Made by a program: the position numbers and the translations under genes
In this document: piece by piece, positions 56,932 through 59,990 of the stretch
Position numbering within the stretch: the stretch's first letter is position 1
How the letters are laid out: every line of letters begins with the position of its first letter
Assembly: GCA_003008705.1 (NCBI GenBank)
Contig: PDUO01000011.1
Coordinates: 301,956 to 365,955 of the forward strand
Direction: 5' to 3'
DNA: 64,000 bases
Source of the DNA: Pezicula radicicola
Lineage: Eukaryota > Ascomycota > Leotiomycetes > Helotiales > Dermateaceae
The notes under the pieces: generated by a model
Seen by the model: only the letters and a program-made list of their open reading frames with translations
Databases searched by the model: none
What the model was told of the DNA's origin: nothing

Positions 56932-56939
56932 AAAAAAAA
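56932..56939 (-). terminator. RNA polymerase III terminator of tRNA-Tyr
   Basis: Eight T in a row on the minus strand, starting seven bases after the discriminator base of the tRNA. Confidence 0.75.
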
Positions 56940-56945
56940 GTGAAG

Positions 56946-57093
56946 TCCCTCAGGGGAGAGTCGAACCCTTTGAAATTTGTTAGTGCAAATTCCTGAGTGA
57001 GAACTTCTTCTGATTTGATTTACGTACCCCGACATTCGGATGAATCTGAACCAGTTACAGTCCGACGCCATAAACCAACTAGACGACCGAGGG
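56946..57093 (-). tRNA. tRNA-Tyr (GTA) with anticodon intron and a second, T-stem insertion
   Basis: Read on the minus strand from 57093. The acceptor strand CCCTCGG pairs with CTGAGGG (56947-56953), discriminator A at 56946. C1-G72 and A73 are the eukaryotic tyrosine identity set. T8, A14, G15, G18G19 and A21 are in place in the D-arm. Anticodon stem TCGGA/TCCGA is perfect, with loop C-T-GTA-A and a 13-nt intron at 57042-57054 directly after A37. Variable loop ATGTC. The T-loop TTCGACT and 3' T-strand CTCCC are present, but the 5' T-strand GGGGG is interrupted by 60 bp (56968-57027). Removing both insertions leaves a 75-nt tRNA with all invariant bases. A and B boxes are readable, and a T8 terminator follows. 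Without the second removal the RNA cannot fold. Confidence 0.72.
56968..57027 (-). other. 60-bp mRNA-type intron-like insertion inside the tRNA T-stem
   Basis: On the minus strand it begins GTACGT, has CACTAAC with the branch A 12 nt before the end, and finishes AAAG. GTACGT also serves as donor in the reductase gene at 6986, and 60 bp is a typical intron length in this window (others 46-62). The G-run at the borders allows the ends to shift by up to two bases; only one of these registers gives GT..AG. Confidence 0.6.
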
Positions 57094-58350: not shown

Positions 58351-59990
58351 CTAATATTCAGCCTCAGCTTCCTCAGGATCAAAGCTGTCAGCAGCAACTT
58401 CCTCGTAATCCTTCTCCAGGGCAGCCAAATCTTCTCTAGCTTCGCTGAACTCACCCTCCTCCATACCCTCACCAACGTACCAGTGGACGAAGGCTCTCTT
58501 GCTGTACATGAGATCGAATTTGTGATCCAGGCGAGACCATGCTTCTGCGATAGCAGTTGTGTTGGAGAGCATGGAAACCGAACGATCGACCGAGGCGAGA
58601 GCACCATCATTGGGAGATGTAGATGGAACGGACATGGGCTTCTGGTAGTTAATACCAAGCTTGAATCCAGTAGGGCACCACTCCACGAGGTTGAAGGAGT
58701 TCTTGGCTTTGAGCGAGGCAACGGCTGCGTTGCAGTCACGAGGGACCACATCACCACGGTAAAGCAAGCAGACAGCCATATATTTGCCGTTTCGTGGATC
58801 ACAAACCACCATTTGGTTGTTTGGCTCGAAACATCTGTGGACGATTAGCAGAGGGCCAACCGAAGATGGAAAGGGACTTACTGAAGAGTCAAGTCCTGAG
58901 TCTTGAAGCTTTCGTGAGAGCTCTTGGCAGCAGAAATGACTGGGGCGTAACTGATCAAGGGATAATGGATTCTAGGGTATGGAACCAAGTTGGTCTGGAA
59001 CTCGTTCAAATCAACGTTCAAGGCACCGTCAAAACGAAGAGACGAAGTAATAGAGCTGACGACCTGGGCAATCAAGCGGTTGAGATGCTCGAAAGAAGGA
59101 CGGGGGATATCCAAGTTGCGGCGGCAGATATCGTAGACAGCCTCGTTATCAACTAAGAAGGTACAGTCCGAGTTCTCAATGGTGCTGTGGGTGCTCAAAA
59201 CAGCGTTGTAGGGCTCTACCACAGCAGTGGAAACCCGAGGTGCAGGGTAAACAGCGAATTCGAGCTTACACTTCTTGCCGTAATCGGTAGACAGGCGCTC
59301 CAAAAGTAAAGAACCGAATCCAGACCCAGTTCCTCCTCCGAATGAGTGGAAGATTAAGAAACCTTGGAGCGAGGAGCAGTTGTCCTAGCAGCACGATTAG
59401 TTGATGTCCGTCCTTTGACACCATACTCATAAACCTACCAAGACGCGGCGAATCTTATCAAGGGTACCATCCAAAATTTCCTTTCCAATTGTGTAGTGGC
59501 CACGAGCATAGTTGTTTGCAGCGTCCTCCTTACCGCTGATCAACAGTTCGGGGTGGAAGAGCTGTCGGTAGTCGCCAGTTCGGATTTCGTCGATGGGGGA
59601 GGGGTCGAGATCGACGAAGATAGAACGAGGAACATATTTACCGCTGCTGGTCTCGGTGAATACAGTGTCGAGCTCGCCAGATTCGTGGATGGCCTGTGCC
59701 TCGGGATCAGGGCGACCGTCTTGCTTCAGACCATGCTCAAGAAGATAGCTAGCGAACAGTCAGAAGCCGATTCTCTGTTGCGATTGGTGTGTGCCTTACA
59801 GTTCCCAAGCACTGTTACCAAGTTGCGTGCCAGCCTGGCCGATATGGAGATGGAGAATCTAGCATAAGCACCGTCAACATGAATTGTTGTGAACTCCTTT
59901 TCCACACCCGCGACGCGCTCCAAAGCGGTGAGGGGCGTGTTGAGGGCGGCGCAATTACAGCTTTTATTTACTTACCTCGCCTCGAGTCAT
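58351..59990 (-). CDS. Alpha-tubulin (fungal alpha-B type)
   Basis: Exons 59976-59990, 59800-59858, 59439-59748, 58882-59384 and 58351-58834 (introns 117, 51, 54 and 47 bp) give 456 residues. The first two exons are tiny: MTRGE, then [20 protein letters not shown] with the first nucleotide-binding loop. The tubulin signature GGGTGSG sits at 144-150. The C-terminal tail is acidic and ends EAEAEY with a terminal Tyr. Alpha-tubulin forms the GTP-bound non-exchangeable half of the microtubule dimer. Filamentous ascomycetes carry two alpha-tubulin genes, and the N-terminal wording here resembles the alpha-B class. Residue 2 is Thr, giving MTRGE instead of the common MRGE/MREC start that takes part in tubulin autoregulation. 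Strong codon bias fits high expression. Confidence 0.95.

Follow-up and report, generated by a model that had tools for sequence, protein, structure and literature searches.

A tRNA-Tyr(GTA) gene in the window, which is the whole stretch of 64,000 nucleotides analysed here, shows two introns of different kinds, and the 60-nt insert that divides its T stem is very probably a U2-type spliceosomal intron. As judged from its sequence, the gene would be functional and transcribed by Pol III, and the spliceosome would have to remove the insert before the tRNA could fold. In the same genome, an additional GT..AG insert of 50-61 nt is present in at least 26 tRNA genes, the window gene among them, which belong to 15 isoacceptors and 10 amino acids; therefore, the fungus likely needs its mRNA-splicing machinery for part of its tRNAs. 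It also appears probable that part of the tRNA set is made through the spliceosome, that functional tRNA genes have repeatedly gained spliceosomal introns beside their promoter boxes, and that some precursors need two unrelated splicing machines; Val(UAC), for which no unsplit gene was found, would tie translation to the spliceosome.

The tRNA-Tyr(GTA) gene of the window and its sister copies

The features of the gene are collected in Table 1, in which box A and box B were assigned by consensus. An earlier note, made from the letters of the window, had described a minus-strand tRNA-Tyr with C1-G72, A73, a GTA anticodon, a 13-nt intron at 37/38, a B box and a T8 run, and all of these were confirmed by direct reading and by script. 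The 60-bp insert which begins with GTACGT and has CACTAAC near its AG end was likewise found as described; its junction, placed in that note at 52/53, was corrected to 51/52 (GGG/GG, the slash marking the junction).

Table 1. Features of the split tRNA-Tyr(GTA) gene, in positions of the window
Feature	Position	Strand	Basis or remark
Whole tRNA-Tyr(GTA) gene, including two introns that differ in kind	56946..57093	-	read directly and parsed by script; full cloverleaf after both are removed
Exon 1, positions 1-51, enclosing the 37/38 intron	57028..57093	-	direct reading and script parse
13-nt tRNA intron of the ordinary, splicing-endonuclease type, at 37/38	57042..57054	-	direct reading
60-nt mRNA-type insert in the T stem, between 51 and 52 (GTACGT...CACTAAC...AAAG)	56968..57027	-	
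5' splice site GTACGT	57022..57027	-	GTATGT and GTACGT in the sister Tyr genes
Branch-site-like CACTAAC, with the branch A 12 nt ahead of the final intron base	56979..56985	-	
Predicted hairpin GGAATTTG-CACTAA-CAAATTTC, branch-site motif in the loop	56972..56993	-	fold prediction
Exon 2, positions 52-73	56946..56967	-	direct reading and script parse
Box A (TCGTCTAGTTGG), uninterrupted	57075..57086	-	direct reading
Box B (GGTTCGACTCT), uninterrupted, beginning right at the 3' splice site	56957..56967	-	direct reading
T8 run, Pol III terminator-like	56932..56939	-	direct reading

With the insert taken out, the acceptor stem has 7/7 pairs and the T stem 5/5, and among the 29 GT..AG pairs that lie 40-80 nt apart in the gene only the annotated pair gives both stems in full; these two stems were scored, and the D and anticodon stems were judged by eye. 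Once both introns are removed the mature tRNA-Tyr has 75 nt, and the gene shows what is expected of a functional tRNA gene, namely a cloverleaf after splicing, boxes A and B and a terminator. The combination of GT, CTAAY at the observed distance and a final AG occurred in 11 of 200,000 random 56-nt inserts with the same base composition. ARAGORN in its bacterial setting and Rfam at gathering score reported no tRNA in the window, and ARAGORN with introns of up to 300 nt allowed reported nothing at the three split tRNA-Tyr loci.

Used as query, the joined exons detected five tRNA-Tyr loci in the genome, all of them with the 37/38 intron at the same place. Three show a T-stem insert at the same position, and the two unsplit genes belong to another sequence subtype, with C52 instead of the G52 of the split genes at the first base past the junction and the partner base 62 changed to match. 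The second split gene encodes a mature tRNA identical to that of the window copy (75/75) and has an insert which is 82% identical. In the third, the mature tRNA is 71/75 identical, and its four changes are two compensatory swaps of anticodon-stem pairs that keep the pairing (pairs read by eye). Although the insert of this third gene is only 71% identical, a hairpin with the branch-site motif in its loop is predicted at the same place in all three Tyr introns. The flanks of the split copies are 52-70% identical. No wider unrelated insertion was seen, as a 62-base query including the insert matched only the window gene and the second tRNA-Tyr gene, and the core of the Tyr intron had no match in the viral contigs searched.

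Elsewhere in the window, an ORF at 58351-58812, about 1.3 kb from the tRNA-Tyr gene, resembles by eye the end of an alpha-tubulin gene. For two other protein genes, the closest named matches fall in Pezizomycotina, with 99% identity between Rpt6 and its counterpart in Xylographa parallela and 94% between the succinyl-CoA ligase and those of Hyaloscypha variabilis and Pseudogymnoascus.

Split tRNA genes across the genome

One genome was searched (61 Mb in 152 contigs, the window included). A concatenated query of 13 fungal tRNAs matched initiator Met genes only; therefore, the inventory was made with the Rfam tRNA model and with B-box-plus-T-run patterns, followed by reading of the fetched stretches. 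The Rfam tRNA search found at least 57 places, 63 of 2516 candidates being scored. The two patterns yielded 212 and 113 rows (10 and 9 when the patterns were reversed as a control), and the inventory draws on the first 100 of each. Anticodons and insert positions of the split genes were assigned by eye. Five split genes belong to Asp(GTC), three to each of Tyr(GTA) and Leu(AAG), two to each of Val(TAC), Ser(TGA) and Trp(CCA), and one to each of Arg(TCG), Arg(ACG), Arg(TCT), Lys(TTT), Thr(TGT), Leu(CAG), Leu(TAG), Leu(CAA) and His(GTG). Many of them also have an ordinary intron at 37/38. In the fetched DNA, 81 other distinct tRNA loci pass ARAGORN and the stem filter without an insert, initiator Met being outside this filter. 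Furthermore, ARAGORN with introns of up to 300 nt allowed missed or misnamed all eight split genes supplied to it, which reveals a blind spot, and tRNA counts in fungi may therefore be off.

The 26 inserts have a median length of 56 nt and all begin with GT and end with AG (boundaries were picked as GT-AG and then checked against paralogues in 15 of them). The 5' sites are GTAAGT in 11 inserts, GTAAGC in five, GTATGT in three, GTACGT and GTACGC in two each, and three singletons; the branch motif is CTAAC in 17, CTAAT in seven, and TTAAC and TTAAT in one each, with the branch A 10-16 nt from the end; and the 3' ends are TAG in 12, AAG in seven and CAG in seven. Four protein-gene introns of the window, from the genes for the proteasome subunit Rpt6 and the succinyl-CoA ligase, have 49-57 nt, GTA..AG borders and CTAAC, CTGAT or CTTAC as judged by eye in this small sample. 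The inserts thus show the marks of a U2-type intron: GT-AG borders, a branch motif, and length and signals like those of the protein-gene introns of the host. A group I or group II self-splicing intron was rejected, since 50-61 nt compare with a ribozyme core of hundreds of nucleotides, and no Rfam match was obtained at gathering score in the window.

Excision leaves 7/7 acceptor and 5/5 T-stem pairs in all 22 split genes tested, and the acceptor pairs are standard in 26/26. This count does not single out the chosen GT..AG pair in 14 of the 22 genes, so that the case for these rests on paralogues and motifs. Comparison with an intron-free paralogue covered 15 of the 26 genes, and each of these alignments runs across the junction with no gap at that point. 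Excision restores the paralogue sequence exactly in one Leu(AAG) gene (100/100), in Leu(TAG) (98/98) and in one Asp gene (95/95); Arg(TCT) differs from its unsplit paralogue within the 37/38 intron only, and Thr(TGT) is 70/72 identical, with both changes within one acceptor pair. Two anticodon-stem mismatches were read by eye, 27-43 in Val(TAC) and 31-39 in Trp, the latter common to the unsplit Trp gene L112.

Covariation across the insert was found in one Leu(AAG) gene at 7-66 and in Arg(TCG) at 5-68: the acceptor stem carries a changed base in exon 1, and the pairing base in exon 2 has changed accordingly. Twelve pairs of split copies were compared, with identities of 85-100% for the exons (counted with the 37/38 intron, except in Tyr), 53-92% for the inserts and 45-70% for the flanks. 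One Asp pair shows the opposite order, with the exons (0.85) less identical than the insert (0.90), and its 37/38 introns differ. A whole-genome search with the joined exons of Val(TAC) matched two genes only, and both are split.

Regarding the Pol III promoter, eleven inserts fall in the range from 4/5 to 11/12 and fourteen in that from 47/48 to 52/53; the remaining one, in His, is at 22/23, and none of the 26 lies between this site and the anticodon. Box B has an unbroken GTTCRA core in 26/26. Positions 8-19 (box A) are free of the insert in 18 of the 26 genes, inserts before position 8 leaving box A whole, and the other eight inserts are inside it (9/10 to 11/12). In seven of these eight, the AG of the insert itself supplies the needed purine, and the G where this is needed, and three of the first four box-A bases are kept; in Leu(CAA) the rebuilt box A keeps only 1 of the first 4. 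In the eleven genes with an intron before position 12, exon 1 is set apart from the remainder of the gene by 50-61 nt. A search for CAACAAACA ahead of exon 1 gave a best match at a distance of 9-22 nt in these 11 D-side genes and of 9-31 nt in 20 intact genes, in both sets with 6-9 of the 9 letters, and the D-side introns themselves match it at 5-8 of 9. A leader of this type as a Pol III feature of split and intact genes is suggestive only. T-runs are present downstream of most split genes. Only those insertion sites that leave Pol III promotion working would seem to have been kept.

Several other tRNA-like loci were seen during the inventory. Three of the split Asp genes (L128, L129 and L140, on C79, C80 and C98) are each followed by an orphan unsplit 3' piece of tRNA-Asp, which runs from the variable loop to the 3' end and has its own T-run; the distances between the two B boxes are 93, 112 and 159 nt, respectively. 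Look-alike tRNA genes at L070/L105 (C36:436.5k), L107/L153 (C47:841.5k) and L117 (C67:331.6k) contain, within the anticodon loop, a further tRNA-like unit that has a B box of its own; in one of these genes the outer tRNA may be Val(CAC). L108 (C55), L118 (C67) and matching B-box rows on C95 belong to a repeated element that ends in GGTTCGATCCCGGATTAGGCCC and a T-run, and that may be a SINE-like Pol III repeat. A tRNA-Gly(TCC)-like gene, L007 (C109:672923-673077), has an unusually long insert at 37/38 (82 nt by ARAGORN) which looks structured. In addition, long inserts interrupt the anticodon region of two odd tRNA-like genes, L004 (C77; GCCTTTGTAGTTCAACGG..) and L132 (C81; GGCTTTATAGTTCAACGG..).

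Removal and origin of the inserts

By analogy with the known splicing of U6 in S. pombe, removal by the spliceosome from a Pol III precursor is the best-supported account for the tRNA inserts. Pol III would read through the insert, which the spliceosome would then release in lariat form. The re-formed tRNA body would next be processed by RNase P and tRNase Z, and by the tRNA endonuclease at the separate 37/38 intron. Since the T stem is broken by the insert, its removal is expected before the endonuclease takes out the 37/38 intron.

It is highly improbable that the inserts are ectopic tRNA-type introns cut by the tRNA splicing endonuclease through a bulge-helix-bulge (BHB), as proposed for the red alga Cyanidioschyzon merolae. 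Similar positions are known there, where the accessible part of one article places introns at 12/13, 37/38 and 53/54 of tRNA-Ile(UAU), with BHB (PMC9602550). Against this, the 4-bp central helix of a BHB (intron start with exon 2 start) is absent in 20/22 inserts, that of the window included, in a simple test run with no positive control, and the other two inserts pair in such a manner only with G-U pairs; moreover, this explanation does not account for GT-AG, the branch site and the uniform length of 50-61 nt. A TSEN-type intron was rejected for the window insert, which sits at 51/52 and has no BHB central helix; the separate 13-nt intron at 37/38 does fit that type.

The earlier note had left a choice between an mRNA-type intron and a dead tRNA, and had taken several intact tRNA-Tyr genes, together with a lack of spliced reads, as a sign of the latter. 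The search for other copies bears out the first half of this, as 2/5 tRNA-Tyr genes have no T-stem insert, and the window copy could therefore be dispensable. It is nevertheless very unlikely that insertion has killed the split copies and that they have simply not had time to decay: the mature tRNAs of the split Tyr genes are 95-100% identical despite diverged inserts and flanks, the third copy shows a compensatory change in the anticodon stem, both Val(TAC) genes found are split, and 26 genes share the same anatomy with a contiguous box-B core. The mRNA-type intron is favoured by the inserts of the same make in 25 other tRNA genes, by the paralogue sequence restored on excision, and by exons that are conserved and covary across the insert while inserts and flanks drift. 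A single dead gene was rejected in view of these 25 further genes together with the conservation of the exons. There remains a very small chance that the loci are transcribed by Pol II within longer RNAs and spliced there, with no Pol III transcript ever meeting the spliceosome. Spliceosomal splicing is normally coupled to Pol II, and it is taught as a Pol II matter with exceptions such as U6 and U3; the contiguous box-B core in 26/26 genes, the T-runs after most of them and the sequence similar to CAACAAACA, of uneven quality, that precedes exon 1 in both split and intact genes argue against such transcription.

As to the origin of the spliceosomal introns, they would have been gained many times, with reverse splicing as the most economical route, because introns of different isoacceptors share motifs and little else. 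Their identity reaches 0.69 (best values 0.67-0.69), against a maximum of 0.67 in 300 shuffles in which the branch motif was not kept, and this slight excess makes a remote relation of some introns possible. A query made of 20 of the 26 introns had 24 matches, 24/24 in split tRNA genes, although the search did not detect the Asp and Ser sister introns, 75-78% identical, that had been omitted from the query, and would miss more diverged copies. Together, the low identity between isoacceptors and the restriction of these matches to split tRNA genes point to many separate gains that are not very recent. No donor intron was found in these searches. Spread of a short mobile introner-like element with splice sites into tRNA genes could explain many copies of similar length in one gene class, and the best identities at or just above the shuffle maximum agree with it; in view of the absence of a dispersed family among the query matches, which did not include even those sister introns, it is extremely unlikely.

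Known systems and other Pol III genes

The accepted view is that nuclear tRNAs lose their introns through the tRNA endonuclease alone. In lichen-forming ascomycetes, nuclear rRNA genes contain spliceosomal introns; as here, an mRNA-type intron lies in the gene of another polymerase, although the transcript is that of Pol I and not a tRNA. A closer likeness is given by the U6 introns of Schizosaccharomyces pombe and other fungi, where a spliceosomal-type intron interrupts a small structured Pol III RNA. The accessible text on the S. pombe intron describes its splicing as a step of U6 maturation and its origin as thought to be reverse splicing (PMC10484740). In contrast to U6, which is part of the spliceosome, tRNA is not, and the host here is the class of tRNA genes, with 26 genes and 15 isoacceptors. 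The introns of fungal U3 snoRNA are similar as mRNA-type introns in a small non-coding RNA, and tRNA genes are not among the known hosts; a 2017 paper names U3 and U6 as the only cases so far in which a small structured RNA is known to be frequently split by an intron (PMC5832005). For C. merolae, the accessible part of the article describes second and third introns outside 37/38, in the D-arm and T-arm of nuclear tRNA genes, which are supposed to leave before the 37/38 intron (PMC9602550). Unlike those BHB introns, the inserts described here have GT-AG borders and a branch-site motif, and the BHB central helix is absent in 20/22 of those tested.

Among titles and the opening lines of abstracts in the open-licence literature, no precedent was found for spliceosomal introns in tRNA genes. 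The available portions of two reviews of tRNA gene structure (PMC4090602, PMC4033280) contain no word beginning with 'spliceosom', and that of a 2026 review of non-canonical splicing (PMC13149111) has the relevant terms only in its reference list. Spliceosomal introns in Pol III genes are thus already known from U6, and tRNA genes are the host class for which no precedent was found in this part of the literature. If the spliceosome does remove these inserts, the split genes would provide a natural test of whether it acts generally on Pol III transcripts, a test of intron gain outside protein genes (with no reading frame, with intron-free paralogues and with exact sites known), and a test of the coupling between splicing capacity and translation.

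Among the other Pol III genes of the genome, the 47 5S matches listed have 120 nt each and no such insert (47 of 2522 candidates were scored, and split copies could escape), and the single SRP match, of 283 nt, has none either. Given these insert-free matches, there is no sign that all Pol III genes are affected. A U6 gene that lies on the minus strand some 28 kb outside the window (L147, G000:C3:394362-394523) shows two mRNA-type introns in our own reading, with the junctions GCATTTG/GTGAGT..GATAG/GTCAATTTG and AGCATG/GTGGGT..CTTAG/GCCCCTGC. The second intron is within the Rfam match; the first is partly outside and was placed by comparison with the 5' region of yeast U6. This first intron contains a box-A-like TGGTCTAGTGG. 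Being similar in build to the tRNA inserts, the two U6 introns speak in favour of a spliceosomal nature of the latter. A second U6-like gene, L146 (G000:C146:17702-17803), which is diverged and intron-free, lies on a 133-kb contig.
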